From positions 41,862,612 to 41,926,611 of the forward strand of contig OZ007575.1 of the NCBI GenBank assembly GCA_963931925.1: a stretch of DNA of 64,000 nt, given 5' to 3'. Positions 8,939-62,984 of this stretch are shown here, piece after piece. The DNA is from Onchidella celtica (taxonomy: Eukaryota > Mollusca > Gastropoda > Systellommatophora > Onchidiidae). The position numbers were made by a program, and so were the translations under genes. The notes below the pieces were generated by a model that did no database searches, had not been told where the DNA came from, and saw only the letters and a list, made by a program, of their open reading frames with translations. Position 1 is the stretch's first letter; each line of letters begins with the position of its first letter.

Positions 8939-9902
8939 TTTAGTCACCTGTGGTCATTTTGACATTGTGTATTCGTCCGTTTAGTTGTATTTCTGTTGTG
9001 TTAGGAATTTGTGCTGTTGTCTTTTGTTCGTTGGATGTATGGGAATTTGATGATATGATTTATGTATATTTATGAATATGTATTGATGCATGTATTGCTA
9101 TAAATATGTACTAATGTGTAATTAAACTTTTCAGAGAGACAGTGTGTGTGCGTGCAGCCTGAAGGAGTCAAGCAGCCAGAGCTCCGAGTAAAGGAAGAAG
9201 TAAAGTCAGAACTTAAAGTTAAGTAAAAGTCAAAATTTTTGTGCCCTGGATTGTGGGCTGTTCCTTTAATCTGTCTTTTTCTCTGTTTTTGCTGTTTTTG
9301 TCGTTATAGATTACACGGGCCGTGGAGTGGGTTTGCTGTGGTGAACGTAGTTTATCCTCTTCGGGAGGTGGGCTAAACTTTGGAACTTCGTTCATCACAG
9401 TGAACAGTTCTTTAGGGCTTTGTGATTGTTTAGTTGTAGCATCGATATCTTCTCTGTTTTGCAGGAAGACGTATTCTCTTGTCCCCCTTGCCTCACCTAT
9501 CTGTAGATACGTTCTTTTTTTCAGGCTCTGTTCTTGTTCGTACCTTGTAGTGTAATCGGCGTAGTTAGGTTGCATTTTTTTTCTCATTATATTTTTTTTT
9601 AGAAGTCTTCGTCCTAGTCTGGTTCGTTGTCCTTGATGTCCTTGTGGTCCTTCTACTGAATTTCCTCATTCTTGTCTTTTCTAATCTCTTTTATTACTTA
9701 ATAGTGCTATACATTTTATGAACATAGAATTAGTTAGAGAGTATGCTATAGAATGCTCAGTTAGGTATTTTTCTGAATTGCAATTGAAAATAGTGGTTGT
9801 TATTATATGTAGTGGCATAATTTCAGGTCTCGGGTCGCGTCGTTTATGGTAGCTGCATAGACAGTTATTAGATTTTAAATCGTACAATTATAAATCCGTG
9901 AA
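8939..9902 (+). other. E1 untranslated leader
   Basis: About 960 bases separate the primer site from the gag ATG. They are T-rich on the plus strand. An antisense reading frame at 9219-9587 has no recognisable domain and is treated as chance. No coding function is seen. Confidence 0.7.
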
Positions 9903-11003
9903 ATGGCGGATCTCGTTGAGCTCATGAAAGTGGGTATGGAACTTGGCCTTGAAAGCGTAGAGCTACGTAGCTGGATTAAGGAGCAGCAGGCGGAATTGCG
10001 CGATGAGCGTGCTAAAGATAGAGAGCGAGAAAGAGAAGCTAGGGATAAGGAACAGGAGAGGGAGTTAAAGTTAAAGGAGATAGAGGCTAGGGATAAAGAG
10101 CATGAGAGAGAAGCTAGGGATAAAGAGCATGAGAGAGAAGCTAGGGATAAAGAGCATGAGAGAGAAGCTAGGGATAAGGAACAGGAGAGAGAGGCGCGAA
10201 TAAGAATCGCGGAATTGGAAATCAAGAGGAATGCGCCAACAGAAACAGTTGAGCGGCAGGGACAAAATAAAAGTGGTGTTCGGATTAAGCTGCCTACGTT
10301 CGACGACCGGAAGGACGATATAGACGCCTTCCTTTACAGGTTCGAACTAAATGCACAACTGCAATGGGGGGAGAATAAGAAGTTATGGTCCACGTACCTG
10401 GCGTCCTTATTGCAGGGTCGAGCGTTAACCTACTTTAAAGAGTTACAGCGCGAAGACGTGCATGATTACGATAAGCTGAAGTCTTTGCTGCTTCGCCGAT
10501 TTGCGCGTACGGAGGAATATTTCCGGGAGAAGTTTAGGCGAGCACGTGCGGATACCAGGGAGGACTTTGCTGCCTTCGTCGCCAGATTGACGGAGTATTT
10601 TACGAACTGGTTGGACTTGTCGCATGTTGGCACAGATTTTGTTAAATTGAAGGACCTAATGATCCGTGACCAGCTATACGCGTCGTGCCATAAGGATTTA
10701 GTGGCTTTTCTCAAAGAAAACGAACCCGCGGCGGTGCAGGAGGCGTCAAGGTTGGCGGAAGCATACCGTACGGCACATCCGTCCAAGCCAGTGGCGAGGG
10801 CGTACGTGCAGGATGCTGGTTACGTCGCCGTGGTTGAGGGGTCGCCGACAGGACATAGTAGAGACAGGTCGCGTCAGCGTGGTGGCTTTAAGGGGCAAGC
10901 CCCGGTCCCACGCAGGGGTATTGCCAATCACCGGCATATGGAGCCGGTAAGTTTGACCGAGCAGGAGGGCGAGATCGCGGTAATGGCCGAGGGCGTTTCG
11001 TAA
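9903..11003 (+). CDS. gag: E1 Gag polyprotein (SCAN-like capsid)
   Basis: A 366-codon structural protein that should assemble the virus-like particle. Residues about 25-107 form a very highly charged, probably helical region (Arg/Glu/Lys), part of it built from nine-residue tandem repeats. An LPTFDD motif near residue 128 opens the capsid region. Residues about 204-291, from EEYFREKF to EAYRTAH, resemble the SCAN-like C-terminal capsid domain seen in many gypsy Gags and vertebrate SCAN proteins. The stop at 11001 lies before the zinc knuckles, which are in the -1 frame. An open -1 frame overlaps from 10892. Either a frameshift signal or a one-base change separates Gag from nucleocapsid. The start is the first ATG after the leader and opens a clean frame. 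Confidence 0.9.
   Translation: MADLVELMKVGMELGLESVELRSWIKEQQAELRDERAKDREREREARDKEQERELKLKEIEARDKEHEREARDKEHEREARDKEHEREARDKEQEREARIRIAELEIKRNAPTETVERQGQNKSGVRIKLPTFDDRKDDIDAFLYRFELNAQLQWGENKKLWSTYLASLLQGRALTYFKELQREDVHDYDKLKSLLLRRFARTEEYFREKFRRARADTREDFAAFVARLTEYFTNWLDLSHVGTDFVKLKDLMIRDQLYASCHKDLVAFLKENEPAAVQEASRLAEAYRTAHPSKPVARAYVQDAGYVAVVEGSPTGHSRDRSRQRGGFKGQAPVPRRGIANHRHMEPVSLTEQEGEIAVMAEGVS
10038..10193 (+). repeat. 27-bp coding minisatellite inside E1 gag
   Basis: Tandem in-frame 27-bp units encode ARDKEHERE or close variants. Three perfect units (10086-10166) are followed by a variant unit, and a related one lies at 10038-10064. They lengthen the charged helix of Gag and are likely to vary in number between copies. 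Confidence 0.9.
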
Positions 11004-13288
11004 CCTTTGCCGATGATCGACGGCAGAGGGACTTTAGTTCCAGTCGCGATGGGTCACGGGGACCCAGGTCTTGCGGAGCACAGGGAGCGGAGTGTTGGAC
11101 TTGCGGACGCGTAGGGCATTTTTCTCGGGATTGTCGGGCCGCGAAATGTTGGAACTGCGGAAGAGCAGGTCACATCAGGGTTAATTGTCCTGCAAGAGGG
11201 ATAGCGGCGAACGTGGATGGCAATCATAGTAGCTCCACTCAATGTTCCCCTAGTAAGTTTCACCATGCAGCCGCGTGTGTTACATCGGACAACGCAGGCG
11301 GACAGTATTCTAAATGTCCCAGTTGTGAAAAATTATTATCTTCCGGTGTTTTGCCTTGTGGGAGAAAGATTCCCGTTATTAATTCATGTCATACAGGGGG
11401 TGGTCTTAGGGTTTATCCGGGGTTTGTTGGGGACGAACCGGTGTCGGTTTTGCGTGATACAGGATCTACCGTTGTGGGAGTGCATAGAGTCTGCATTCAC
11501 GAGTCACAGCTTACGGGTGAGACTGTCCCATGCATTCAATTTTCAGGGGCCATTGAAAAATTACCCATGGCAAAGATAGTGATTGATACAACTTTTCTTA
11601 GCGGGGAAGTCGAAGCAGTCGTTGGGGTTTTCCCAGGCGCCCAGCTCATCATTGGTAATGGATCTCGGGTAGTTTCCCCTTCTGAGGAGCATGTACAGGC
11701 ATGGGCACAATCTAAAGGTATTGACTTTTGTGCCGCAGTCGAGACACGTCGACAAGTAGCTGATAAGGGTAAAGTTAGACCTTTGGCAACGCCAGCGGTC
11801 AACCTTGATATCACGCCAGAGCGCTTGGCGAGATTACAAAAGGAGGATCCATCATTGAGTCCATGTTTTGGGGAAGCGCGAACTGAGAAAACGAGGAAAT
11901 ATAAGAACGGTCCATCTTCCTTTCTTATCCAGGGGGGCATTCTGTTCCGTAAATATGCCACAGTGGCTTCCGTTCTAAAGCAGGTCGTTGTGCCAGCGTT
12001 GCTAATTGCAACAGTATTGCGGTTGGCCCATGATGTCCCATTAGCGGGTCATATGGGAATAGCTAGAACCAAGGAGAGAGTCCTTAAGAATTTTTATTGG
12101 CCATCAATCCACAGAGATGTACGGTTGTACTGTAAGACGTGCAGTGCGTGCCAAAAGACGACGCACACGGGTCGTACACCCCAGGCTCCTCTTCAAAATA
12201 TCCCCACGGTTTCGGAGCCTTTTAAGAAGGTTTCGATTGAACTTGTTGGCCCCATTCACCCAGCTACTGATAGGGGGAATCGGTTTTTTTTAACGGTCAT
12301 TTGTAATGCTACGAGATGGCCAGAGGCGGTTCCTCTTCGTACCGTAACGTCAGAAGCAGTCGCGGAAGCGTTGTTTCGAATCTTCGTTAGAGTAGGAATA
12401 CCGGAACAGATTTTGTCTGATAGGGGCGCGCAGTTTACGTCGGATATGATGAGGGAATTCTTTCGCTTATTTAGCATACAGCCCATCACTACCACCCCAT
12501 ATCATCCACAGGCTAATGGCATGTGCGAGAGACTAAACTCGACGCTAAAGTCGATGTTGCGTAAGGTAGCTGCTGATCGCCCTAAAGATTGGGATAGATA
12601 TATCCCTGCAGTATTATTCGCGTATAGGGAGGTATGTCAGGAGTCAACAGGATTCTCTCCGTTTGAGATGTTGTATGGTCGTAGTCCTAGGGGTCCAACT
12701 GATGTTCTTCGGGACATGATGACGTCGCCATCATCGGGAGACGATGAGCAAGTTTCAGTGTTTCAGTACCTTGTTGATTTAAGAGAGAGATTATCTTCAG
12801 CGCCCACTATTGCGGAAGAAGCTTCTAGTGTCGCTTCAAAAAGAGCAAAAACCTATAATGATAGAGGGTCCAAACTGCGAATTTTTAAGCCAGGAGACAA
12901 GGTTTTGTTATTATTGCCTACGGATCATAATAAGTTATTAATGACATGGAAAGGTCCGTATACTATTGAGCGAGTCGTTTCGAAGGTAGATTATGCTATT
13001 CAGATTGATGGATCAGTTAAGGTTTTCCATGTTAATATGCTGCAGAGATTTTATGAGAGACCAGAGTATCTGTGTGCTCAGACGAAACCAAAGGAGAGTG
13101 TCTTCTCTATTGCTTGTACGGGGGTCGTAGACCAGTCAGACAGTGACGTGAACGACACTGAGGTACAGGAAGAGGTACAAATTCAATTGCCGGAGTTAAC
13201 TCCGACACAAGGTTACAGGGACGTAAAATTTAGCCCTGACCTTACGAGTTCACAGAGTAGGGAACTTCAGACTTACAGTAATTTTTAA
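10892..13288 (+). CDS. pol: E1 nucleocapsid-protease-integrase reading frame
   Basis: This frame opens at 10892, in -1 relation to gag, and has no obvious start of its own. It carries two CCHC zinc knuckles (about 11096-11190: CWTCGRVGHFSRDC, CWNCGRAGHIRVNC), a retroviral-type protease motif LRDTGST (about 11453) with a later LIIGN, then a full integrase. The integrase has an HHCC zinc domain (H near 12030 and 12050, CKTCSAC near 12130), a core with SDRG (D at 12419) and CERLNS (E at 12527) spaced D-35-E, and a C-terminal domain with LLTWKGP-like MTWKGPY. The first catalytic position reads IELVGP (codon 12239), Glu instead of Asp. It ends just after the integrase tail, at the RT deletion junction. 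Zinc knuckles package RNA, protease processes the polyprotein and integrase inserts cDNA. Confidence 0.9.
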   Translation, partial: GASPGPTQGYCQSPAYGAGKFDRAGGRDRGNGRGRFVTFADDRRQRDFSSSRDGSRGPRSCGAQGAECWTCGRVGHFSRDCRAAKCWNCGRAGHIRVNCPARGIAANVDGNHSSSTQCSPSKFHHAAACVTSDNAGGQYSKCPSCEKLLSSGVLPCGRKIPVINSCHTGGGLRVYPGFVGDEPVSVLRDTGSTVVGVHRVCIHESQLTGETVPCIQFSGAIEKLPMAKIVIDTTFLSGEVEAVVGVFPGAQLIIGNGSRVVSPSEEHVQAWAQSKGIDFCAAVETRRQVADKGKVRPLATPAVNLDITPERLARLQKEDPSLSPCFGEARTEKTRKYKNGPSSFLIQGGILFRKYATVASVLKQVVVPALLIATVLRLAHDVPLAGHMGIARTKERVLKNFYWPSIHRDVRLYCKTCSACQKTTHTGRTPQAPLQNIPTVSEPFKKVSIELVGPIHPATDRGNRFFLTVICNATRWPEAVPLRTVTSEAVAEALFRIFVRVGIPEQILSDRGAQFTSDMMREFFRLFSIQPITTTPYHPQANGMCERLNSTLKSMLRKVAADRPKDWDRYIPAVLFAYREVCQESTGFSPFEMLYGRSPRGPTDVLRDMMTSPSSGDDEQVSVFQYLVDLRERLSSAPTIAEEASSVASKRAKTYNDRGSKLRIFKPGDKVLLLLPTDHNKLLMTWKGPYTIERVVSKVDYAIQIDGSVKVFHVNMLQRFYERPEYLCAQTKPKESVFSIACTGVVDQSDSDVNDTEVQEEVQIQLPELTPTQGYRDVKFSPDLTSSQSRELQTYSNF

Positions 13289-14018
13289 ACGATTGCCTCA
13301 TTTTGGGTTAACTGCTAAACCCGCAAAGATGGATTTGGCATGTCCAGAAATAGTATTCATAGGACATCTCGTGGGTAGAGGTATTCAGAGACCTGAAATA
13401 ACAAAAATTGAGAAATTAGTAGGGTTACAAATCCCTAAGACAAAGAAACAAGTGAGAAGCTTAGTGGGAATTTTAAATTATTACAGGAAGTTCATTCCTA
13501 ACTTTTCCTCCTTGTCATCTCCTCTTACTGACCTTACTAAGAGGGGACAGCCCGATAAGGTCCAGTGGACGTCTGTTTGTCAGACAGCATTTGATAAATT
13601 GGTGACAGCATTATCATCGTCTCCCATTCTGATATTGCCAGATTTTCGATCTAAATTTATCCTCAGAACAGATGCATCGGACTCTGGTATCGGCGCTTGT
13701 CTTCTACAGGAGAAGAACGAATGTTTCCATCCTGTATGTTATGTCAGTCGAAAGTTATTGCAGAGAGAAAGGAAGTATTCTGTAATAGAGAGGGAGTGTC
13801 TTGCCATTGTGTGGTCCGTCCAAAAATTAGGACGTTATCTGATGGGACGAGAATTCTACATCCAGACAGACCACAAGCCACTAACGTTTTTGTCTAAGAA
13901 TCGTTCATCCAGCCCTCTCTTATCTAGATGGGCATTGGCTTTACAGACGTATACGTTCGTCATTCAACCGATTCCAGGAACCAGCAATCATATCGCCGAC
14001 TACCTTAGTCGAGCCTAG
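13272..14018 (+). pseudogene. pol: E1 truncated reverse transcriptase-RNase H
   Basis: Only the last part of reverse transcriptase survives: GLTAKPAKM, the IVFIGHLVGRG connection motif, and the KKQVRSLVGILNYYRKFIPN thumb-like segment. A complete gypsy RNase H follows, with RTDASDSGIGACL, ERECLAIVW, TDHKPLTF and HIADYLSRA containing the expected acidic residues. The fingers and palm, including the YxDD box, are absent. By comparison with element E2, roughly 200 codons have been lost at about 13280. The frame is also shifted relative to the upstream integrase frame, with a stop at 13286-13288. The enzyme cannot polymerise. RNase H itself looks intact. Confidence 0.9.
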
Positions 14019-30104: not shown

Positions 30105-30340
30105 TTCCTTCTTCTTCTTCTTCTTCTTTTATAGTTGGTTCGTCTATAAGACGATTCCCCAACTGCACTATAGTATATGCGACTGAACGTCGCTCCTCTG
30201 AGGCTAAAAGCAGGGTAAAACCTTACATAGATGTTAAGACCATTTAAAAATATATTAGTTGTATAAAGTCTTTTGTATATATAACTCTGGTATAAATATC
30301 TCTTGGTTTCCAGATTGTGCACAGAAATACAACCCGCACT

Positions 30341-32866
30341 TTAGTTACAATGGTAGCTGCAACGGATAATAATGTTCTTAAATTCATTGTCGAAAGTCGT
30401 TGCAGACGATAGTGTTTGGACTTCTGCCGGGAGGTTGTTCCACATCCTGATGACATTAGGGTAAAAAGAATAAAGATGGCTGTTAACCCGTGAGCTTGGG
30501 ATGTTATATTTTATATTATTCCTTCTGTTGCCTCTGGTATTAATGGTGAGGTGGTTCAGTGGGATATGGATATTTCCTTTCCTGCCTTTATAAAATATTT
30601 TTACTTTGTTTTTTGCTCTCCTCTCTTCTAATGGTGTCCACTCGAGGTCTCTCATCATTTTATTTACACTACTACTTCTAGTATAGACATTTGTCACAAA
30701 GCGGGCAGCTCTCCTCTGGACCCTTTCCAGTTGGTCTATGTTTATTCGACAGTGGGGGTCCCAGACACTGCAGCCATACTCTAGGGAGGGCCTCACAAAG
30801 GTGTTATAGCATTTTTCTTTTACTTTCCTATCGCAGTTAGAGATGTTCCTTTTTAGAAATGCTAGTATACCATTTGCTTTGTTACATGTGTTATTAATGT
30901 GTTGGTTCCATGTAAGTTTTCTGTCCAATGTAACTCCCAAATATTTAGCCTCATGTGTTTCGCTCAATATTTCGTCGTGTATAAAGTAGTCTGAGGTGAT
31001 GTTGTGTTTTTTATTTGAAATTCTCAGGACTTGGCATTTATTGGGGTGGAATTCCATACGCCAGTCCCTCTCCCATTTTTGTAGACTGTCTAGATCTTTC
31101 TGTAAAATTTCCGTATCTTCTTTTGAGTTTATTGTTCTATAGAGGAGGCTATCATCAGCAAACAGTCGTAATTTAGTGCCTGGAGAGATCTTACTTGGCA
31201 TATCGTTAATATAAACTAGGAATAGTAAGGGGCCCATTACAATACCCTGGGGTACTCCCGAAAGAACAGCTGCAGGATTGGATGACTTTCCATCAACGAC
31301 GACTATCTGTGTTCTATTTTCTAAGAAAGACTTAATCCACTTCAAAGTACTGTTTCTAACTCCATAATGGTTTAGTTTAGTCAAGAGGCTAGCATGGTGC
31401 ACTTTATCGAAGGCTTCACTGAAATCTAATAAGATGGTATCAGTCTGCGTGTTGTTATTCAAGTCATTAACAAAATCATTGCAAGTTGTGACCAGCTGGG
31501 ACTCACACGACCTGTGTTTTCTAAAACCATGCTGTACATGTGTTAAAACTGAGTGTTTCTCGAGATGCTTCATGATGCTGGTATGCAAGATATGCTCTAA
31601 AAGTTTACAAGATATTGATGTCAGGGAGACTGGTCTATAATTTTCAGGACTAGCTCTATTTCCTTTCTTAAAAATGGGTACTACATTTGCTTTTTTCCAG
31701 TCTTCCGGTATTTTTCCTTGTTCAATTGAAGCTCTAAATAACAAAGTGTAAACAGGGGCAATTTCCTTGGCACAGAGTTTCAGTAATTTGGCGGGAATTC
31801 CATCAGGCCCTGTAGCTTTATTTTCGTTAAGGTTTTCCAAAAGTTTCAGTACTCCATTTTCTGTGACAAATATTTCATCCATATCCGGCAGTTTGGCATC
31901 ACTCAGCTCTCCCGAGAAGACTCCCCCTGGGTCGGAAAAGACCTTACAAAATTGAGTATTTAAGATATTGGCTCTTTTTTGGGCATCTTGCTGTGGGTGC
32001 CCTCTCTCATCGTTCAGTGCGGCTACTCCTAAGTTTTCTTTATTTTTACTTTTCACATATCTCCAAAGTTTTTTACTGTTATCAGATGAATCACTTATCA
32101 TCTCATGGATATAATTATTATGAGCTTTCCGGCATTCTTTCTGTGTCAATCTTTGAATTTCTAGATATTTGTTTTTCACTCGTTCGGAGTTGCACTGTTT
32201 CATTTTTTTGAACCATTTATATTTTTTCCGAACTAATCTTTTCGTTAAAGTATTTATCCAGGGTTGGTGAATTTTTGTGGATGACATTTTTGTTGGGACA
32301 TTTTCCATGATCATGTTCAAATTTAACTTGATACAGTCCCAGAGTTTGTTTGCGTCAGTTTTTGAAGAGTGGTATTTCATGAAAAAAGTGCCAAAAGTTG
32401 CTGCCTCCCTTTTCAAATTATTTTCGTCTGTCTGATTCCATAGGTAAATCTGTCGCCTAATAGGTCTTTTCTTAAAGGGTTTCAGTTCTGAATCAATCTG
32501 GACTATGTCATGGTCCCCTAGTCCAGGAAGAATTTTGATCTCTCTTGTAAGGTTAGGGAAATTAGTAAAGAATAGGTCTAACAGTGCATCTCCTCGAGTG
32601 GTCTCTTTTACTGCTTGCTCTAGGCCTATATCCGCAGCACTGTCTAAAAATAGGTCATTTATTTCTCTTAAGTTTTGGCAACTCTTCACATTTCCTTCTT
32701 CCCAGTTTATATCAGGTAAATTGAAATCTCCTCCTATCCAGATGGTAGCCTTTTTGTTCTTTTGGTAGGCACTGAGAAGTTCATTACAAATGTTCTTACT
32801 AGTTTCCAAGTCACTACCAGGAGGTCGATAGACTGCACCCACAACAAGAGGAGGTTTACCCTGCAC
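30341..32866 (-). CDS. LINE ORF: endonuclease C-terminus and reverse transcriptase
   Basis: This 841-codon frame continues the LINE polyprotein after the frameshift. Endonuclease motifs are VVGAVYRPPGSD, WIGGDFNLPDI and GLGDHDIVQI. Reverse transcriptase follows with KATGPDGIPAKLLK, NYRPVSLTSISCKLLEHIL, LLDFSEAFDKVHH, GVPQGIVMGPLLFLVYIND and the catalytic LFADDSLLY. The tail has KYLGVTLDRKLTW, RRAARFV and MWNNLPAEV, as in CR1/L2-like elements. Its product nicks target DNA and primes cDNA synthesis from the nick. The apparent start at 32866 is a GTG inside the endonuclease and is not biological. The true start lies in the preceding frame. No stop interrupts the RT domain. Confidence 0.9.
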   Translation of the reverse strand: MQGKPPLVVGAVYRPPGSDLETSKNICNELLSAYQKNKKATIWIGGDFNLPDINWEEGNVKSCQNLREINDLFLDSAADIGLEQAVKETTRGDALLDLFFTNFPNLTREIKILPGLGDHDIVQIDSELKPFKKRPIRRQIYLWNQTDENNLKREAATFGTFFMKYHSSKTDANKLWDCIKLNLNMIMENVPTKMSSTKIHQPWINTLTKRLVRKKYKWFKKMKQCNSERVKNKYLEIQRLTQKECRKAHNNYIHEMISDSSDNSKKLWRYVKSKNKENLGVAALNDERGHPQQDAQKRANILNTQFCKVFSDPGGVFSGELSDAKLPDMDEIFVTENGVLKLLENLNENKATGPDGIPAKLLKLCAKEIAPVYTLLFRASIEQGKIPEDWKKANVVPIFKKGNRASPENYRPVSLTSISCKLLEHILHTSIMKHLEKHSVLTHVQHGFRKHRSCESQLVTTCNDFVNDLNNNTQTDTILLDFSEAFDKVHHASLLTKLNHYGVRNSTLKWIKSFLENRTQIVVVDGKSSNPAAVLSGVPQGIVMGPLLFLVYINDMPSKISPGTKLRLFADDSLLYRTINSKEDTEILQKDLDSLQKWERDWRMEFHPNKCQVLRISNKKHNITSDYFIHDEILSETHEAKYLGVTLDRKLTWNQHINNTCNKANGILAFLKRNISNCDRKVKEKCYNTFVRPSLEYGCSVWDPHCRINIDQLERVQRRAARFVTNVYTRSSSVNKMMRDLEWTPLEERRAKNKVKIFYKGRKGNIHIPLNHLTINTRGNRRNNIKYNIPSSRVNSHLYSFYPNVIRMWNNLPAEVQTLSSATTFDNEFKNIIIRCSYHCN

Positions 32867-33591
32867 TCTAATCTTACAGAGAACAGTTTCTCCTGCTTCC
32901 TCACTAGGTATTTTTTCACTAAGTTCTTCTTCACTGCTATCAAGACCCCACCTCCCCTTCTCTTCTTCCTATCATTTCTGTAGATTTCATAATCATCATT
33001 AATTGAAATTTCACTGGTTTTTATATTTTCGTTTAGCCATGTTTCTGTTCCGATGATTACGTCAGGTTTAGTTTCGTTCAAAAATGAGCTCAGTTCTTCT
33101 TTCTTGTTCCAAATGCTTTGAAAATTTATAACCTGGGTTCTGAACGTGGTTTTCTCTTTGGCTGGCTCTTTTTTCTTGGATTTGGGGTGTGGGGTTGACG
33201 AATATTTTGGTTCAAAGATTGGTATTTCTGTGTTACTTTTATTAGTATCTAAATGTTGTAAGATATCAAAACTATTGTGGGATCTTGATCTACTACAGTC
33301 TAAGTTTAATTGAAAATCAGTGAATAAGCTGGAACTAAAATTTGGCATGCCACACTGGATACATTCCCATGCGGCACTGCTATTGCCCAGTGTTTCATAC
33401 ATTACTGAGTTTATTCCCATACAGTCGATGTGGTACCAGCGGTCACAACTATCACATGCGATGGCCCTCGTTTTCCAGGTACATTTTTTAAGGCAAACGG
33501 GGCAAGGGGGGAATCTAGTCTGGGGTCCAGGGTTGAGCTCCACGTCACCCGATAATGACAGTAGTAAGAACAATACCAGAGAGATGTTCAT
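32734..33591 (-). CDS. LINE ORF: signal-like leader, 2A, PHD finger, endonuclease N-terminus
   Basis: The chosen start (33591) opens with a hydrophobic run, MNISLVLFLLLSLS, joined directly to GDVELNPGP, the conserved 2A ribosome-skipping motif. Skipping before the last proline would release a 22-residue leader. The leader resembles a secretory signal, so 2A may also act as a targeting switch. A PHD-like C4HC3 zinc finger follows (CPVC, CDSCDRWYHIDC, WECIQC), then a basic linker and the first endonuclease motifs (KPDVIIGTETWL, GGGVLIAV). The frame then departs from the endonuclease, near 32940, because of a probable one-base indel. The frame is open upstream to 33918, so a longer start is possible; that extension has a second hydrophobic segment. 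Confidence 0.8.
   Translation of the reverse strand: MNISLVLFLLLSLSGDVELNPGPQTRFPPCPVCLKKCTWKTRAIACDSCDRWYHIDCMGINSVMYETLGNSSAAWECIQCGMPNFSSSLFTDFQLNLDCSRSRSHNSFDILQHLDTNKSNTEIPIFEPKYSSTPHPKSKKKEPAKEKTTFRTQVINFQSIWNKKEELSSFLNETKPDVIIGTETWLNENIKTSEISINDDYEIYRNDRKKRRGGGVLIAVKKNLVKKYLVRKQEKLFSVRLECRVNLLLLWVQSIDLLVVTWKLVRTFVMNFSVPTKRTKRLPSG
33523..33549 (-). other. 2A ribosome-skipping motif GDVELNPGP
   Basis: The nine codons encode the full conserved 2A core, D-V-E-x-N-P-G followed by P. In characterised 2A peptides the ribosome fails to join Gly to Pro and carries on. APE-type LINEs of several invertebrates are known to carry such motifs. Activity here is inferred. Confidence 0.85.
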
Positions 33592-35166
33592 TGTATTTGA
33601 AGAACTATTTATCCTAAATTTCGGACTGGTTCTAGATCTATATCTACTTTTCTGTCCGAGGACAGACCAGGTGTTTATTAATGAGGTCCTGGATTTAGGC
33701 GAGTTGACAACACTAAATTTCCAGTTGTTATAATTAGCCTCATGTTTAGATCTAGATCTAATATCCCATCTACATCCAAGTGAATACAGTTCTGGTCTAG
33801 ATCTATATAATAAAACGGTGAACAATAAACTTATCGACATTAAGAGGAGAGATCTCACTATCTCACTCTTGATAATGGCACAAGACGTGGACTTCCCACC
33901 GGCACAAGCGGTCGCCATATTGGAACTTTTCAGTCCACCCTTACCTTCCAGTTATAATCACAATCTGGGACCAAGAGATTAAAAATTTAGTCAAATTATA
34001 ATTCCCATTCACTTCCAATTCATATAAAAGTACAGTGAAAACACTGTTGGTATAATATACGTATTAAAAATTGGTAAATTCATCAAAATGGGGGTGTAAA
34101 TTTGGAGCTCTCAGAAAAAGCGTCGTCTCCTCGACCGGAAGTGCTATTCCTACATAAATCAATAAAATATAACGAGGTATTCACACTCTGTCTACCAGGT
34201 TTATCCTGGCCATGTTGGTATGAAGGGAAATAAAACACCACAAACACTTACCAGAGAAATGTTAAAACGTCTACCTGATAATCCCCCAAACAGGTTTTAA
34301 ACCTGCTGTCAGAAATTTCACGAAATGGACATGGCAGGCAGAATGGGATGAACAAACAACAAATAAAAAGCGCTCTGTCCATGATGAGCAGTGTGCTCAT
34401 ACCTCCGAATTAAGTTAGCGACCTTGTCTGGGTCATAGCCACCATACACCGTTTTTCACCTGGTGAGGACGATCCCCCAGTATATAAAGCGTGTAATTGC
34501 CAACTAACGGTGAATCACAATTATTGATTAAAAAAATGTGGGTTCCACTCAAATCCAGAGAAGGCACCAGGCCCACCAGGCCCTTTGATCCACAAAAAAA
34601 ATTATTCTCGGATGTGTTCCCACAGGGCATAAGATCCATCCTGAGGGAGGCTGACATCTTGGTGTTGATTTTAACAGATTTTTTGGACATATTTACAAAG
34701 TATTTTCACGGGCCTTTCCCAATAAATTTGTGAAATTCAAAGCTGCAGTTATCGTGCCGACGCGCCGTTAAGCCCAAACTTAGTCAATCATAGCACACAT
34801 ACACATTCATGCAGCCCGGCATACACACTCTCTCACACACACACACATGCACTTATATAACCCCCCCCCCCCCAAGAAAAATCATGAGACGTAAGGATGT
34901 TGACAGGAGCGCTGTGTACTAACCTTTACATCGTCACACTTACTGGTCATTTATCATTGGGGAAGAGGATTGAGGCTGCTCTTGACGGAAGGTATAGGTA
35001 CAAATTCACGCATTCCATACGTCAAACACAGCGATATCTCAGGTCGTTCTAGAACAGATGACAGGCGGAAGACGGATGTGTCTCAAATAGTGAGGGTTCT
35101 CACCCCGGACATGGCTCTATCATAGTATTAGATTCTTTTTTTTTTAACCATTGTCTCTAAGCGTAA

Positions 35167-43316: not shown

Positions 43317-44225
43317 TTAAACCAACCGAGACAACACATCGGCCTGTAAGTTTTCATTTCCAGGGATGGCTCGAATGACAAACCTGTACTCCTGGAGCGC
43401 GAGGCTCCATCTAGTTAATCGAGCATTTTTAGCCCTGTTTGATTTGAGAAACAACAACGGACGATGGTCCGTTTCAATGATAAACTGTCTCATAAGTAAG
43501 TAACGAGAGAATGCGCTAACGGCATAAATAATTGCGAGACATTCTCGCTCGATGATTGCGTAACGGCATTCTCGATCAAGTAATTTGCGGCTGGCGTACA
43601 GACATGGCCGCAAAGAATTTTCACGTTCCTGGAGTAATACCGCTCCCAATCCCTTGTCCGACGCATCTGTACGGACAACGAATGTTTGGTTTATATCCGG
43701 TAGTATGAGAATGGGAGACGTAGAAAATAAGCGCTGGACGGTCCGAAGGGCATCAGCGCATTCGGTAGTCCATGTTACCTTGTTAGGAAAGTTCTTCCTT
43801 GTTAGGTCCGACAACGGGGCCGTAAGCGATGAAAAATTTGAGATGAACCTTCTATAGTAACTTAAGAAGCCCAATAAACTGCGAACTTGCTTCTTTGTCT
43901 GAGGGGCCTGAAGTTTTAAGATTGTAGTGATCTTCTTGTCGTTCGGGGTCTGAACGCCGTGGGCAATCGTATGGCCCAAAAAATTTATTTGTTTGTAACC
44001 AAGAAACACCTTACTCGGTTTAGCGGTAAGGCCGGCTCGACGAAGAGCATTGAAGACTTCCCGAAGGGCCGCTAGGTGGCCCGACCACTCAACTTGGTAA
44101 ATGCAAATGTCGTCGAAGTACGACAAAACGGAGTTTATATTTTGGAGCACTATTATCATACGCGCGAATGTGGCAGGGGCCGTAACCAACCCAAAGGGCA
44201 TATAGCGCCACTGCATGAGGCCCAA
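43317..44225 (-). pseudogene. pol: E2 reverse transcriptase core and RNase H
   Basis: Contains RYMPFGLVTAPATFARM, the catalytic VLSYFDDICIY, INFLGHTIAHGVQ and KKQVRSLLGFLSYYRRFISN, then RNase H with RTDASDKGLGAVLL, ERECLAIIYAV, TDHRPLLF and LQADVLSRL. The frame is intact for 302 codons, but it is separated from the RT fingers by stops near 44300. The YxDD box that E1 has lost is present here. Confidence 0.9.
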
Positions 44226-44323
44226 CGGGGTCTGAAAAGCGATATATTGCTTGCTATTGCCTTCAAGAGGAATTTGCCAGTGGCCCTAGGACAGGTCAAT
44301 TTTTTAAAATATTGTTGCCCTCG

Positions 44324-45166
44324 CTAATTGTGCAAACAGATCCTCTTGGTTAGGGATCGGTTCGGCATCATATATCGTAATCGCGTTAAGTTTACACAAA
44401 AGCGCACGGTATCATCCTTTTTGACTAAGACGATGGGTGAGCTATATGGGCTCGTCGATCGTTCTATTACCCCCATATGAAGCATGTTACGCACCTCGGC
44501 CATTATGGTATCCTGTGCGTGTAGAGGGCGCGGGTACGGCTTGACGAAGACGGGTATATCCGTCTGTAAACGTATGACATGCTGTACCAGTGAGGTGCAA
44601 CCCGGCAAATCTGTAAACACCGTAGTAAATTCCGCCAGCAAATCTGTTATATCTTGTCTTTGCGACGGAGACAGATCTGGATTGATATGTACATCCGACG
44701 CCCTTTCCGTAGCTTGCAATGTAGGAATTGATGTATTGATGTTTATGGGGTCATTATCGCCAATTGTGACCACGTTGCGACGATTATTCCGATGATTACG
44801 CTTGTCCGATAGATATTTCTTGAGCATGTTAATATGAAATAATTTATCCTGCCTTCGTATATTAATCATGTAATTAACTTTGGAGATCCTCTTCTTGACC
44901 TTAAAAGGTCCTTTCCACGTGAGGAGAAGTTTGTTGTTTGTCTCCGGTAGGAGAACAAGGGTCAGGTCTCCGGCGGCGAGGGTTCGCAACTTGCTTCCCT
45001 GGTCGCGATATATTTTATAGCTGTCAGCTCGACAACCTGCAAAGCGCTGGGCTGTCTCACATGCGCTAAAAATCCTATGTCGAAGGTCGACTACGTATCG
45101 ATACGCGGATCGCGTATCGCTATCATCGGCCTTTGAGCCCGTGAATAAATCGTGAATTATAGACAT
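44324..45166 (-). pseudogene. pol: E2 integrase C-terminus joined to reverse transcriptase N-terminus
   Basis: Starts with the integrase C-terminal region (YRDQGSKLRTLAAGD, LLTWKGPFKVKK, LFHINMLKKYL) and passes, in the same frame, through a spacer (INPDLSPSQRQDITDLLAEF) into reverse transcriptase (KPYPRPLHAQ, MGVIERSTSPYSSPIVLVKK, RFCVNLTRL). This single reading frame directly shows integrase preceding reverse transcriptase. It ends in frameshifts and stops near 44330. Confidence 0.9.
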
Positions 45167-45471
45167 TGGTCCGTGTGGTTTACGCCCATATATTTATTCA
45201 AACGGAGAAAAACCGGTCGAAGCGTTTGGTAATTCCCGGAACGCAAAAAGGATAGCGGGAAGCTGACATCCCAATCGTTTGGCTTATCAGCAGACACTCG
45301 CGCAAGCATAGCTTTCATGCTGGCGTTCCACCTCTCGCAGCATCCATTTGGTTGTGGGTGGTAAGGCGATGTTAATCTTTGCTTAATACCTACCAATTCT
45401 AATACTTTCCTAAACAGATCAGAGGTAAATTGAGGTCCTCTGTCTGACAAGATCTCGGTTGGAAAACCCAC
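45157..45471 (-). pseudogene. pol: E2 integrase core fragment
   Basis: Continues the integrase in a new frame with GFPTEILSDRGPQFTSDLF (second Asp) and HPQPNGCCERWNASM (catalytic Glu), D-35-E-like spacing. After ADKPNDWD the frame shifts again near 45255, and the remaining residues are out of frame. It has no start codon of its own. Confidence 0.85.
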
Positions 45472-46607
45472 GCGTGCAAATTTAAAATGGTAAGAAGGGC
45501 CTCAGCCACATGGTCAGCTGAGATGTCCTTTAAGGGGATGGCCTCCGGCCAACGAGTAGCGTAGTCAATAAGGGATAGTATAAATCGGTGGCCTCTGTCC
45601 GATTTCTCCAGAGGCCCAACTAAATCTACGGCTACGGGCTGGAACGGTGTGCAAACCAATGGCATTTCCTGTAAGGGGGCCCGCGATGCTCTTCTCTTAG
45701 GGGTACGTTTTTGACATATGTCACATGTTGACACAAAACGGTTAACATCGGCATAAACACTCGGCCAAAAGAAATGAGATAATATTCGTGATTTAGTTCT
45801 AGCTTTTCCTTGGTGGCCTGATAACGAAGTGCCATGTGCCAAACGAAGTATGTCGCGTCGGAAGGATCTTGGGACAACGAGTTGAAGGATTGTCTCACGT
45901 TTACCTCGGAAGTTCCGGTACAATAAGTTATCCTTCAATACAAACTTCGAAGTATCCGGCGCTGCAGGGTCAACCTTAGCGAACAACGGTTTCGGTGTTA
46001 TATCAGAACGCTGTTCGTCATAAAATATGGTGGGAGTTACGTCAAAATCGAAAGCAGGGGTATGTAATGGACCCTCAGGTTTGCGACGTGTTTGTTGACG
46101 TGTGGTCCCATATGCGATGTCAACGTCCTCGCTCCAGATTTCTAAATCACCGGCAGGAAATTTTGGAACTTGTGGTATATTTCCTATGATCACATCTGCG
46201 ACTGGATTTGGTAGTACGCACGCGGCAACAATACCTGTAATAAAAGGAGTGTCAACATAAATCTCCGCCAGACGGAACCGCTCGACGGATCCGCCGAAGG
46301 TTATACAAGTCGCCTCTTTATCGAGAAATTGTGTGGGGCGGACTAGCGACTCTCGAACGCCGATCGTTGTGCATCCGGAGTCTCTCAGCACAGACGCAGG
46401 TATCGCAATGACGTGGCCCTTATAAAGTGTTAACTCGCCCAGCTCATGTAGGGCTGACATGACTGGAACGGCGTTTAATTGACATCTGTCTTGAACGCGA
46501 CCGTCGTCCTCATAAGGTGGCGATCTGACCGAACAAGAATTGCTGGTCTCTATCTTAGCTGTACAATGTCTTTGCACGTGGCCAAATCTATTGCATCTGA
46601 AACACAT
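45399..46607 (-). pseudogene. pol: E2 nucleocapsid-protease-integrase N-terminal part
   Basis: Starts at a single CCHC zinc knuckle (CFRCNRFGHVQRHC); the upstream basic region reads in the same frame. Protease has VLRDSGCTTIG and VIIGN. Integrase has the HHCC domain (H in LAHGTSLSGHQG, CDICQKRT) and the first catalytic Asp in VAVDLVGPL. After DHVAEALLTIL the frame leaves the integrase, near 45480, so the protein is cut before the second Asp. E1 has two knuckles at this place; only one is seen here. Confidence 0.85.
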
Positions 46608-46708
46608 AACGCGCTCATCATCGCGAGGGGCTCGACCCTCAAAACGAACACGCTGAGGTGGTCGCTGAGGCCGGCTATAACCCGTGCTCTGGTAGCTTCC
46701 ACGACGTG

Positions 46709-47731
46709 TTAAGGGCTGAACGAATAGCCCTGGTATCCGGGACGTGGAGAGGGTATATTTCTACGCGGACTCTCCGATGGCCTATAATATGGTGGCCCTG
46801 ACTGAGCCCGAGGATTTGGGGCCTGGCGACGGGTTGATCGCGACCGCTCAGGCGCGGCCGGCGGCGTTTTGCCGATGCTGGCATAAAATGGCTCACTATT
46901 TTTTGCTTTGGCCATCGAACGGTTTGGGTGGGCGGACGCGTACTGTTCCGCCCATGACGTGATTTCGTTTGAGTTCTTCGGTGCTCTCTCTTTGAGATGG
47001 GCAACCAAGTCGGGATGACAAGCCCCATAGATTTGGTCTTTCAGGAGCAGGTCATATAGTTCCGAGAAACTACCGCGCGTAACGCCCGCAAGCTGGATCC
47101 AACGATCTAGATAATGTTTTAGTCGGTCCACGTATGTCGAAAAGTTCTCGGTCGGCTCCGGCTTACACCCTCGAAATTTCTGATGGAATCCATCTTCAGT
47201 GTGCTGAAATCGTTTCAGTAACGCCTCAACCTTGAGGGCGTGAAAAACCTCAAGGGCCTTGCCTGTAAGCAAGTTAACAAGGCAAGCAGTGTATGTCGAT
47301 TGATCCCACCCGACGGACCGAGCATGAAGTTCAAATCGATGCAAATATGAGTCGATTTGATCGATTTTATCGTTGAATACGGGTAGTTTAGGTTTACACG
47401 TAATGTTGTTGGACGCAGAAGTAGGAGTCCCGATTGACTGACGTTCCAACTTTTTCAACGTAAGTTCACGTTCTCTCTTCTCTCTATCGGCAGTTTCTTT
47501 TTCTCTTTCTCTTTGTTCCTTCTCTCTTTCTCTTTCTTCTTTTTTCTCAGCTCTTTCTCTTTCTGCCGCCTTCTCGGCTCTGTCTTCTCTTTCTCTTTCT
47601 CTTTGTTCGGCCCTTTCCTCTCTTTCTTTATCACGGTCTTCTTTTATCATCATCTCGCAACAAGCACCACGTTTCTCTTTTGGTATACCGAAAGCCTTGG
47701 CCGCTTCTAGATATTTCATTAAGTCGGTCAT
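46709..47731 (-). CDS. gag: E2 Gag polyprotein (SCAN-like capsid)
   Basis: An intact 340-codon frame. After a short N-terminus (MTDLMKYLEAAKAFGIPKE) there is a long Arg/Glu-rich helix (residues about 33-95). It is followed by LPVFNDKIDQIDSYLHRFEL, the same capsid entry motif as E1 (LPTFDD). A SCAN-like segment follows (HTEDGFHQKFRGCKPEPTEN to EQYASAHPNR). The C-terminus is basic and Pro/Ser/Tyr-rich (RPSESPRRNIPSPRPGYQG). The stop falls just before the zinc knuckle, which lies in the -1 frame, exactly the relation seen in E1. It forms the particle and binds RNA. The retained frame in an otherwise dead copy suggests limited time since insertion or chance. Confidence 0.85.
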   Translation of the reverse strand: MTDLMKYLEAAKAFGIPKEKRGACCEMMIKEDRDKEREERAEQREREREDRAEKAAERERAEKKEEREREKEQREREKETADREKRERELTLKKLERQSIGTPTSASNNITCKPKLPVFNDKIDQIDSYLHRFELHARSVGWDQSTYTACLVNLLTGKALEVFHALKVEALLKRFQHTEDGFHQKFRGCKPEPTENFSTYVDRLKHYLDRWIQLAGVTRGSFSELYDLLLKDQIYGACHPDLVAHLKERAPKNSNEITSWAEQYASAHPNRSMAKAKNSEPFYASIGKTPPAAPERSRSTRRQAPNPRAQSGPPYYRPSESPRRNIPSPRPGYQGYSFSP

Positions 47732-48414
47732 ACTGTTGCTTATTATAACGCCGCTCTATGAATAGGGAGTTCTACTATTCCCACAATATTATTTAGGTTT
47801 ATTATCTCTCTCTAACTACGACTCACCAAATTATTTATTCAGCGTGTCGACTGACACGTGAATCACAGGCACAGTATGTGTATATAAGTAGTCTCAATCG
47901 CTAAATATGCTTTGTTATGACTAATAGCTCTCTCTCTCAAGATCACAAGGCAATAATTGTATGCCAATTTCTGTAGCAGACACTTTGCTGCTTTTAATGT
48001 AACAATATCTCTCCCTCTAATGTGCAGTATCAATAATAAGCTGCAACAAAGTGTATCTCTCTCTCTCAATACGACGTGGCAGTGTCACAAATCTGTTAAC
48101 TCACTGCAATAAATCTCTCTTCCGTCAAAACCAGATTAACACTCTTTCAACGTGTCGCTATGCACGTGAAATAATCAGGCATATATTATAAATACAAATG
48201 GTCAATATACTATGAAAGGGTGATAAAAAAAATACACTGAACAGGACGCTAGACTTACACGTAAAGAACGAACGACAACAAACCCGACAGCCTGAAACGT
48301 ATGTATAGAAAGGTAAGAAGAGGGACAGGAGAGACGTCTTCCTAAAGAGAGGGGGAAGAAAAAAAAAAACGCCACAATCTATACGAATAAACAGATCCCT
48401 ACAGAAACTATACG
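47732..48414 (-). other. E2 untranslated leader
   Basis: About 680 bases between LTR and gag, with scattered GAGAGAGA tracts (minus-strand sense). No ORF of interest is seen. Confidence 0.65.
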
Positions 48415-60343: not shown

Positions 60344-60751
60344 AAAATCGACGGAAATTTTAAGCATCTTCTAGGACATCTAGATGATCAATAGATCTAT
60401 ACTTTAAAGCCTAAAAGGGACCAAACGGGTCCTGAACGAAGTGTTGTGTTAACCTTGCATTTTACCCACGTGGGCCACTGTGCTGTGTGAACTGTGACTG
60501 TTAGTTTACTACTGAGCAGATCTAATCTAGGGCTGGATCTAGACAATAACCACTAACTCTAGCATAATAGATCTAGACCAAGAACTGTTCGAGTACTGTT
60601 GAAGTGATATAGGTTAGATCTAGATCTAAACATTATAGATTTAATCTAGATTTACCACCAGTTTGTTTTGACCAAATTTGGAAGGTTTCCCACCCGTGAC
60701 CTGCAGATTAAGAAACTTACAGTCAAAATAACAGTAACATTTAGAAACAAG

Positions 60752-61351
60752 ATGCCTAAACTCAATCCCCCAGAAACTATAGATTTCCAGCATCCGAAGT
60801 GGAAAGAATGGAGGACGAGATTTAACAGATACAGAATAGCCAGTAAATTATCCAAAGACAGTGGGGAAGTCCAAGTTGCGACACTAGTCTACTCGATGGG
60901 CAAAGAAGCTGAAGATATTTTTGCCAGTTTTACATTCGAAAATGGACAGAAAAACAATTTTGATTGCGTTCTACAAAAGTTTGAAGAACACTTCATTCCA
61001 AAGCGGAACATAATTTGGGAGAGATCGATTTTTCACAAACATATCCAAGAGGAGGGTGAAACAGTTGAAGAATGTATTAGAATTCTTTACAAGCTTGCAG
61101 AATACTGTGAATTTGCGGATAGAGACACACAGATAAGAGATAGATTGGTCATAGGACTAAAAGACAAATCAGTATGTCAGAAACTACAATTAAAAGAAGA
61201 CTTGACATTAGAGAAGACCAAAGAAATTTCTCTTAATCATGAACTGATCAAGACACAAAATGAAGCAAGTGCAAAAATAGATGCAGTAAAAATGAAAAAA
61301 AGGGAAAGAAAAGCCTCACAGAGGGAAGAAGTACAGGGACCCAAAACCTGA
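60752..61351 (+). CDS. gag: E3 Gag
   Basis: About 199 codons from the ATG of MPKLNPPETIDF, chosen because it starts the capsid region with a clean context (AAGATGCC). Residues up to about 110 (WKEWRTRFNRYRIASKL, VATLVYSMGKEAEDIF) match the capsid of mag-type gypsy Gags. The next part (FEEHFIPKRNIIWERSIFHK, ETVEECIRILYKLAEYCEF, IRDRLVIGLKD) is the retrotransposon Gag domain. The C-terminus is basic. The frame stops at 61351 before the zinc knuckles, which are in another frame. An A-run at about 61296 is the likely site of a one-base indel. There is no coiled-coil N-terminus, unlike E1 and E2. Confidence 0.85.
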   Translation: MPKLNPPETIDFQHPKWKEWRTRFNRYRIASKLSKDSGEVQVATLVYSMGKEAEDIFASFTFENGQKNNFDCVLQKFEEHFIPKRNIIWERSIFHKHIQEEGETVEECIRILYKLAEYCEFADRDTQIRDRLVIGLKDKSVCQKLQLKEDLTLEKTKEISLNHELIKTQNEASAKIDAVKMKKRERKASQREEVQGPKT

Positions 61352-62984
61352 AGCAAGATTTAGCTTTAATGACAGGAAGTATCAAGGTCAGGCCAGTGGT
61401 CACTCATCAAAAGAATGCACTAAATGTGGACAAACTCATGCCTGGGGTAAATGTCCAGCATTTGGCAAGAAATGTTATAACTGTCAAAAACAGAATCACT
61501 ACGCATCAATGTGTCGACTGAGTAGACAATCCAACAGACCAAGTCCAATTACTCCAAAACAAGTCCAAGAAGTAGATTTGAGACAGGGTCAAGAAGAACT
61601 TGAGGATTGTTCAGATTACTTTATTGGCTCCGTCGTTTCAAACGTTCCACCATGGACTACCAATGTTGAAATTTTGGGGGAAATGATAGAATTCAAGATC
61701 GATACTGGTGCTGATGTAAACATTCTGAATCAACAGACATGGAAACAACTAGGTCAACCTTCACTTGATGTATCAAAGGCAAGTCTGCTGAGCCCAGCAG
61801 GAAAAATTTGTACTTTGGGAAGATTTAAAGTAAAAGTCAGTGACAGCAAAGTGGACATGTATGTAGTCAAGAATACAACTTGTAATCTCCTTAGCAGATC
61901 TACGCCTATTCACATGGGATTAGTGAGGTTGGTGAACAGTGTAACCCAGTTTGGCAAAGTAAACTGTCAACCAGTGAAGATAAAACTAAAGAGTGATACC
62001 AGGCCTTGTGCTGTACCTGTATCACGTAGAGTGCCTATACCCCTTATGAAGAAAGTAGAATCAGAACTCCAGAGGATGAAAGATAAGGATATTATTGAAG
62101 AAATCAATGAACCAACAGAATGCGTATCCCCCATGGTTCCAGTCTTAAAGCCTTCAGGAGACGTTAGGATTTGTGTGGATCTCAAGAAACTCAACCAAAA
62201 CGTCGAAAGAGAACGGTACATCTTACCAACAATGGACGACATCATTTACAAACTAAAGGGTTCAAGAGTATTTTCGAAGCTGGATGCGGCTTCAGGTTAT
62301 TTACAAATACCACTTGATGAAGAGAGTGCAAAACTTACAACTTTCATTACACCAATGGGAAGATTTTACTTCAAAAGACTTCCATTTGGAATTTCGTCAG
62401 CACCTGAAATATTCCAGAAAGTGATGGAGAAAATACTTGAGAACATAGATGGAGTCGTACGTTATTTTGATGACATGCTCATCCATACCAAAGATGAAGC
62501 AAGCCACACAAAGACATTGCTAATAGTAAAAGAAAAGCTCCAGAAGGCAGGATTAAAACTGAATGAAAATAAATGTACATACTACCAAAGTGAAGTCAAG
62601 TTCCTCGGACATATAATCTCAGAAAAGGGTGTGAGGCCTGATCCAGAGAAAATAAATGATATCAAAAACATGGAAGAGCCAAAAGATATTCCTGAGCTAA
62701 GACGGTTTCTAGGAATGGTCCAGTATCTTGGCAGGTATATCAAGAACCTCTCAACAATACTGAATCCGTTGAACCAACTTTTACAAAAGAACTCAGCATG
62801 GTACTGGGGAGCCGATCAAAGGAAATCATTCGAAACAGTCAAAGAATTACTGTCAGATTCAAACACATTAGCATTTTTTGATTTGCAAAAGGAAACTGTA
62901 GTGAGTGCTGATGCTAGCAGTTCTACTCCAGAAACACAAAGAAAGTTGGAGACCAGTTGCTTATTGCTCAAGAACACTGACTAA
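61352..62984 (+). pseudogene. pol: E3 nucleocapsid-protease-reverse transcriptase
   Basis: Two zinc knuckles at about 61398-61515 (CTKCGQTHAWGKC, CYNCQKQNHYASMC) lead to protease (FKIDTGADVNILN near 61694) and a full reverse transcriptase: SPMVPVLKPSGDVRICVDLK, FSKLDAASGYLQIPL, LPFGISSAPEIFQKV, catalytic VRYFDDMLI, KFLGHIISEKGV, and the LRRFLGMVQYLGRYI thumb segment. RNase H begins at VSADASS but lacks the glycine-containing segment that should follow. The frame then shifts near 62940. Domain order is the standard gypsy order. RT itself looks intact. Confidence 0.88.

Follow-up and report, generated by a model that had tools for sequence, protein, structure and literature searches.

A 2A (StopGo) motif near the N-terminus of the ORF in APE-type non-LTR retrotransposons is reported to have been found by Odon et al. 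(2013), and Luke et al. (2014) are said to have advanced the idea that 2A limits the polymerase there, substituting for ORF1 down-regulation.

In the 2A/StopGo peptide of FMDV, the D(V/I)ExNPGP core follows a leucine-rich segment that lodges in the ribosome exit tunnel (PMC12846837), and this tunnel holds 30 to 40 residues (PMC2978324). When a signal-2A-GFP polyprotein was expressed in yeast, the upstream part went to the ER and the downstream part to the cytosol; 2A can, moreover, be inhibited when the sequence that precedes it is engaged in the translocon (PMC2978324). In a sea urchin NLR, the 26-residue 2A is itself both the N-terminus and the signal (PMC4981915). Among LINEs, the Type IIIA elements of the CR1 and L2 lineages are described as apparently single-ORF, with a PHD finger at the N-terminus, and the terms "signal peptide," "hydrophobic," and "transmembrane" do not occur in the main text of that description (PMC4120745). 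Such LINEs are thus described as starting with the PHD finger, and the 2A at their start has no settled role. For the esterase ORF1 of CR1-type LINEs, a membrane role in replication was proposed from its lipid binding (PMC3905857).

A PHD-endonuclease-reverse transcriptase LINE with a 2A motif

The window, that is, the whole stretch of 64,000 nucleotides of Onchidella celtica DNA analyzed here, holds a LINE copy (Table 1) whose ends are the commonest stopping points of similarity to other copies and which has 34 long matches to them at 90.8 to 99.2% identity. On the minus strand, 33591 to 33523 encode MNISLVLFLLLSLSGDVELNPGP, and the same frame continues into a PHD finger and the first part of an endonuclease. 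The octapeptide D(V/I)ExNPGP is present as DVELNPGP, with the leucine-rich stretch SLVLFLLLSLS upstream of it, and from this motif skipping at NPG/P would be expected. A PHD finger, an APE endonuclease, and a reverse transcriptase were all detected by Pfam in one ORF of the sister copy L017. One other copy, L011, was scanned as well, and its PHD finger scored slightly below the curated cut-off (23.5 versus 24 bits). In the window copy, the endonuclease is interrupted by a frame change between 32968 and 32734 (frames 32734-33951 and 30341-32968).

The initial annotation had recognized an APE-type LINE that carries a 2A motif and a PHD finger, and it had proposed a genome-wide search for the family. 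The domains above bear out the identification, as does the search: a degenerate DNA pattern for GDVELNPGP had 204 exact matches in the 1.14-Gb genome, whereas the reversed control had 0. Thus, the motif is not a chance occurrence, and the LINE is dispersed and multicopy. A second 2A family in this genome was rejected as far as two further patterns reach: D(V/I/M)E, with codons that begin with C excluded at x, had one match, as did its control, and G(V/I/M)E had two, one of which is, by its letters, a mutated copy, while the other is not LINE-like.

For comparison of copies, we used the window copy and 40 stretches (L009-L048) from the first 100 places listed; L001-L008 were left out because they represent the same places as L009-L016. 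All 41 copies align with one another around the 2A motif. An unbroken downstream frame of 1069 to 1085 codons is present in 11 of them, and in 7 both the leader and the downstream frame are open.

Elsewhere in the window, ORFs at 9894-14018 (plus strand), 43317-47755 (minus strand), and 60650-62984 (plus strand) resemble, by eye, those of Ty3/gypsy-type LTR retrotransposons, with gag-like, zinc-knuckle, RT-like, and integrase-like stretches.

Table 1. Features of the LINE copy in the window
Feature	Positions	Strand	Details
LINE copy, ~4.0 kb	30108..34145	minus	5' end near 34145, 3' end near 30108
Short GAA repeat	30105-30128		LINE 3' end falls inside
5' untranslated region	33919..34145	minus	2 short uORFs; one-base indels common to several copies
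Predicted leader with 2A, 131 codons, ATG 33918 to Gly of NPG	33526..33918	minus	pI 10.4
Hydrophobic segment near the N-terminus (aa 23-37), putative signal or signal-anchor	33808..33852	minus	KD15 mean 2.46
MNISLVLFLLLSLS, leucine-rich segment of the 2A peptide	33550..33591	minus	"signal-like leader" of the initial annotation
2A/StopGo core GDVELNPGP	33523..33549	minus	bond predicted to be skipped: Gly (codon end, 33526)/Pro (codon start, 33525)
PHD finger	33352..33504	minus	Pfam PF00628, E 6.6e-06 in sister copy L017, position transferred to window
APE-type endonuclease (approximate)	32500..33102	minus	Pfam PF03372/PF14529 in L017, transferred to window
Reverse transcriptase domain (approximate)	30926..31669	minus	Pfam PF00078, E 7.4e-38 in L017, transferred to frame 30341-32968

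The leader probably starts upstream of the 2A peptide

The Met of MNISLVLFLLLSLSGDVELNPGP had originally been taken as the N-terminus of the ORF, so that the protein would begin with MNISLV. This premise is probably wrong. The frame upstream of MNIS is open for about 110 more codons, up to ATG 33918, which has A at -3 and G at +4. Among the 32 copies with a complete 5' end, the frame from this ATG to the 2A is open in 27, including the window copy; four of the five exceptions have private frame-breaking indels, and one has a stop. Three of the nine copies that were dropped as 5'-incomplete (L011, L012, L014, L015, L016, L026, L034, L040, and L044) are also open in the leader, which brings the total to 30 of 41. 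Indels tell a similar story: those common to at least two copies fall at four positions in the leader (one of them a 6-nt repeat array) and are all multiples of three, whereas the 5' UTR has five one-base indels common to at least two copies (Fisher p 0.008, with the repeat array counted twice), a contrast weaker than this value, since an AGATCT repeat that varies in units of 6 nt accounts for some of the indels in the leader, and these would be multiples of three anyway. Translation starting at ATG 33918 is thus supported by sequence, and the element is well supported as a PHD-endonuclease-RT LINE with a single long ORF predicted to begin about 110 codons upstream of MNIS.

The AGATCT repeats lie at 33640-33860 of the window (minus strand) and in the aligned copies; they encode Arg-Ser dipeptides and vary by 6 nt, so the leader frame survives their steps. 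Upstream of the leader, two uORFs in its frame, at 34083 and 34008 (minus strand; 24 and 5 codons), are each closed by a stop, and a further ATG lies at 34023 within the first of them. A splice-donor-like sequence, GGTAAG, is found just 5' of the leader ATG (about 33930-33950, minus strand) in the 12 copies displayed.

If translation were instead to start at MNIS, a 22-residue peptide would serve as both signal and 2A, with skipping giving a cytosolic polymerase and failure leading to export. On the one hand, experiments have demonstrated the same arrangement in SpNLR2A6 (PMC4981915); with A at -3, the ATG of MNIS could be reached by leaky scanning; its Met is kept in 39 of 41 copies; and a few of the relatives surveyed below (P0026, P0052, P0057, P0162, and P0166) carry just a short N-terminal hydrophobic 2A peptide. 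On the other hand, the upstream frame is open in those 27 of 32 copies, where its start also has G at +4, and the 2A would then not lie at the extreme N-terminus, as it does in the NLR. In addition, a Met before the leucine-rich segment is not fixed (51 of 129 relatives), and it is gone from L038, where the leader and downstream frames are intact; among the relatives with NPGP, 112 of 129 have leaders of at least 60 aa. MNIS was accordingly rejected as a conserved start, and we consider initiation there very unlikely in this family. Dual targeting of the NLR type would fit the few relatives with short leaders better than it fits the window family.

Two hydrophobic segments in the leader

Besides the hydrophobic segment touching the 2A, the leader has a second, more strongly hydrophobic one further upstream, at aa 23-37. 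In all 30 copies with an open leader, the mean Kyte-Doolittle hydropathy of this N-proximal segment over 15 residues is 2.46 to 3.09, and in the window copy it ends 94 residues ahead of the G of NPG. Loss of leader hydrophobicity among copies had been named at the outset as an observation that would speak against a signal-like leader; hydrophobicity is kept, as the 12 residues before the 2A have values of 2.05 to 2.68 in 41 of 41 copies, and MNISLVLFLLLSLS shows few changes across them. The proposal of a signal-like leader stands in part. A link to an ER signal is plausible, but the stretch touching the 2A matches the StopGo leucine-rich segment, as seen in the 129 relatives, where Leu accounts for 45 to 74% of residues at positions -11 to -7, counted back from the N of NPGP. 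For that stretch, the leucine-rich part of the 2A/StopGo peptide is a better reading than an N-terminal signal, and the segment at aa 23-37 appears to be the better signal candidate.

The frame of the leader is kept while its sequence is nearly free

Substitutions between subfamilies are distributed differently along the ORF. From MNIS to the 2A, subfamilies A and B differ by 6 synonymous and 1 nonsynonymous changes (p 0.0009), and other pairs with B-type copies by 6 to 7 versus 1; the corresponding counts are 4 versus 3 for D with A or C, 2 to 3 versus 2 for D with B (subfamily D is a single copy, L013), and 0 versus 0 for A-C. In the leader upstream of MNIS, dN/dS is 0.26 to 0.63 in pairs among A, B, C, and D except A-C, with six pairs tested and significance reached in two of them, A-D (p 0.011) and B-D (p 0.0008); it is 1.93 for A-C and 3.89 for A2-C (13 nonsynonymous and 1 to 2 synonymous changes). 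The polymerase part has dN/dS of 0.13 to 0.23 in the five measurable between-subfamily pairs. In the leader, changes common to at least two copies number 10 synonymous versus 31 nonsynonymous and show no excess at third positions; from MNIS to the 2A, they number 5 versus 1. Amino-acid constraint on the leader of this family is weak. Taken together, the substitution and indel patterns indicate that the leader frame is kept and that its sequence can vary almost freely. Since this holds for the middle of the leader, position would seem to count more than sequence. No homologue of residues 1-110 was found among 117 candidates at E 0.1.

The better preservation of the 2A segment than of the leader (6:1 for A-B; 5:1 versus 10:31 for shared changes) would also suit a scheme in which the 2A just limits the amount of polymerase, replacing ORF1 down-regulation, and the leader is a passive spacer whose hydrophobic start has no ER role. 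A passive spacer, however, leaves unexplained why 88 of the 113 leaders described below have hydrophobic N-termini, versus 23.6 when shuffled, despite the turnover of their sequences, and we regard this scheme as unlikely.

A hydrophobic N-terminus is common among 2A-bearing relatives

Two homology searches, each followed down to its best 120 matches (of 433 and 331, respectively), yielded 200 different proteins; named relatives among the matches listed include Pinctada, Nucella, Branchiostoma, and Amphiura, together with one bacterial genome bin. NPGP stands directly before the PHD Cys-pair pattern in 129 of the 200 listed relatives and elsewhere within the first 300 residues in 3; the other 68 lack NPGP, and 13 of these have a PHD-like pattern near the start. 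Besides the 17 relatives with leaders shorter than 60 aa, among which P0026, P0052, P0057, P0162, and P0166 have a single, NLR-like N-terminal hydrophobic 2A peptide, there are 112 with leaders of at least 60 aa; with our own, these make a set of 113 leaders in 86 sequence clusters. Their starts were presumably picked by gene callers (108 of 113 begin with Met). We scored a leader as positive when any 15 residues inside its first 50 had a mean Kyte-Doolittle hydropathy of at least 1.6; such a score differs from signal prediction, and the "signals" of these leaders are hydrophobic stretches.

By this measure, an N-terminal hydrophobic stretch is present in 88 of 113 leaders, and in 70 when each of the 86 clusters is represented once, compared with a mean of 23.6 and a maximum of 32 of 113 in 50 rounds of shuffling. 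For windows at internal Mets the figure is 21 of 1709, and for the relatives lacking NPGP it is 9 of 68. Leader by leader, the trend is less clear: in the first set (n = 81), 51 exceeded their own shuffles at p < 0.05, but only 17 did so at p < 0.01. The overall result holds with other windows and with a second scale (69 to 88 of 107 Met-starting leaders versus shuffled means of 17.7 to 28.5). Where the middle is long enough for comparison (n = 54), 43 N-termini pass versus 6 middles, and after single-linkage clustering at 50% polymerase identity the trait is found in 35 of 40 clusters. Averaged over the leaders, hydropathy peaks twice, around residues 6 to 20 and again at -6 to -15 before NPGP, and in 87 signal-bearing relatives the hydrophobic window lies 51 to 222 residues from NPG (median, 82; the measurement itself imposes a minimum of 33). 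The positive n-region expected of a typical signal is weak: net charge ahead of the N-terminal segment (n = 88) is positive in 32 leaders, zero in 49, and negative in 7. Any Met is present in the 20 residues that include the leucine-rich segment in 51 of 129 relatives versus 34 expected from background, an excess that parallels that of other hydrophobic residues.

The remaining 25 of 113 leaders fall below the hydrophobicity threshold; with a wider search zone, the trait is found in 92. Its absence is scattered on a polymerase tree, with little more clustering than when labels are shuffled: the rows lacking it need 17 changes, and 57 of 500 shuffled label sets are as low. In at least one case, P0009, absence resembles a late start call, judging by comparison with P0007 and P0010. 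In P0025, P0027, P0028, P0032, and P0048, there is no clear N-terminal hydrophobic stretch, and repeats such as QAARAAG, RAPRGAR, and QASREAR are seen.

The 2A region of these proteins also varies. Many octapeptides in the 129 relatives deviate from D(V/I)ExNPGP (GIEPNPGP, DLHPNPGP, QIELNPGP, and others), and these natural deviations offer a ready set for probing the limits of StopGo. P0080, P0155, P0172, and P0175 have a hydrophobic start and an altered 2A core (NPNAGP, HPGP, NPGS, and HPHPGP). P0124 and P0127 are similar around the PHD start to P0121, P0122, and P0129, but have Met where those have NPG/P (MPRRPKYPC in P0124 versus NPGPRRPKYPC in P0121), as if a start codon had replaced the 2A.

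The same architecture would equally be expected if the leader were a fast-evolving membrane or secreted accessory protein, replacing ORF1 or countering the host, which the 2A merely separates from the polymerase. Leader bodies are recognizably conserved in some groups (28 to 46% identity in the first cluster, at 54 to 70% polymerase identity), and the membrane role proposed for CR1-type esterase ORF1 proteins provides a precedent (PMC3905857). Even so, the 113 leaders form 86 clusters without detectable similarity at the cut-off used, and the leader of the window family is weakly constrained and has no homologue in the search described above. Nor are glycosylation sequons enriched in the leaders (58 versus 63.5 shuffled), a count that gives no support to the leader as a glycoprotein. 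An accessory protein seems to us rather improbable.

A proposed role in docking translation at the ER

The reading we prefer, with a probability of about 0.6, is that a signal-bearing leader docks translation at the ER and the 2A then frees the polymerase into the cytosol. The 131-codon leader would open with a hydrophobic signal or signal-anchor near its N-terminus, continue through a middle under loose constraint, and end in the 2A/StopGo peptide. Translation would begin at ATG 33918, a step supported by sequence. The hydrophobic segment would then emerge some 54 to 64 codons before the 2A is complete: it is separated from NPG by 94 residues, of which the exit tunnel would hold 30 to 40, so SRP could dock the polysome on the ER before the 2A acts. 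Next, as predicted from the motif, the bond would be skipped at NPG/P, leaving the leader membrane-bound and PHD-EN-RT as a free cytosolic protein with an initial Pro. The benefit, which is speculative, may be that the LINE mRNA is translated and the RNP is formed at the ER or the outer nuclear envelope. Docking of the polysome at the ER is the function that we favor for the leader.

The initial proposal had the 2A setting a choice between staying and export. Since the hydrophobic segment would be exposed well before the 2A, in contrast to the NLR, the 2A most likely parts an ER-engaged leader from a cytosolic polymerase; that is, it would keep the leader from exporting the polymerase rather than decide between the two fates.

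A variant would have the leader in the translocon lower 2A efficiency, so that ER docking sets the ratio of free polymerase to membrane-trapped fusion. Some reporters indeed had 2A inhibited by ER-translocated upstream sequences, and the 51 to 222 residues between the hydrophobic window and NPG in the 87 relatives (at least 33 by construction) would be compatible with such an effect, but the inhibition varied with the construct (PMC2978324), and we view tuning of this kind as quite unlikely.

The layout common to many relatives suggests that such LINEs make use of membranes. More tentatively, and with less than even odds in our estimate, a large group of animal LINEs regarded as single-ORF may encode a hidden ER-targeting leader split off by 2A; its signal would dock the polysomes of the element at the ER or the outer nuclear envelope, StopGo would release the polymerase at that site, and RNP assembly would be membrane-localized without an ORF1 protein. 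If the docking model is true, the signal-bearing leader gives the 2A a clear job, the release of the polymerase from an ER-bound chain, and LINE replication would be tied to membranes, a link proposed earlier from the lipid binding of the ORF1 esterase (PMC3905857). It also raises a testable question, whether the leader and the LINE mRNA reach the ER. As a practical caution, the starts of LINE ORFs should not be called at the first Met before the 2A or at the PHD finger.

Comparison with known systems

Among the papers listed by literature searches, judged by titles and the beginnings of abstracts, there is no report of signal sequences in 2A LINE leaders; the novelty of a signal-bearing 2A LINE leader is provisional. 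As 2A-bearing APE-type non-LTR retrotransposons are reported to do, the window family has its 2A towards the N-terminus of the LINE ORF.

The family resembles the Type IIIA PHD LINEs in having PHD, endonuclease, and RT in one ORF and no separate ORF1, but differs from them as described in its in-frame signal-like leader before the PHD finger (PMC4120745). It shares with FMDV 2A the same core and a leucine-rich segment, although the version in the window sits in a LINE and its activity is a prediction from sequence (PMC12846837). Unlike the esterase ORF1 of CR1-type LINEs, which has a lipid-binding enzyme domain, the leader bears a signal-like sequence (PMC3905857). The sea urchin NLR likewise combines a hydrophobic N-terminal sequence and a 2A in a single reading frame (PMC4981915); in the NLR, however, the two are one and the same peptide, whereas in the window LINE a distance of 94 residues separates the hydrophobic segment from NPG.
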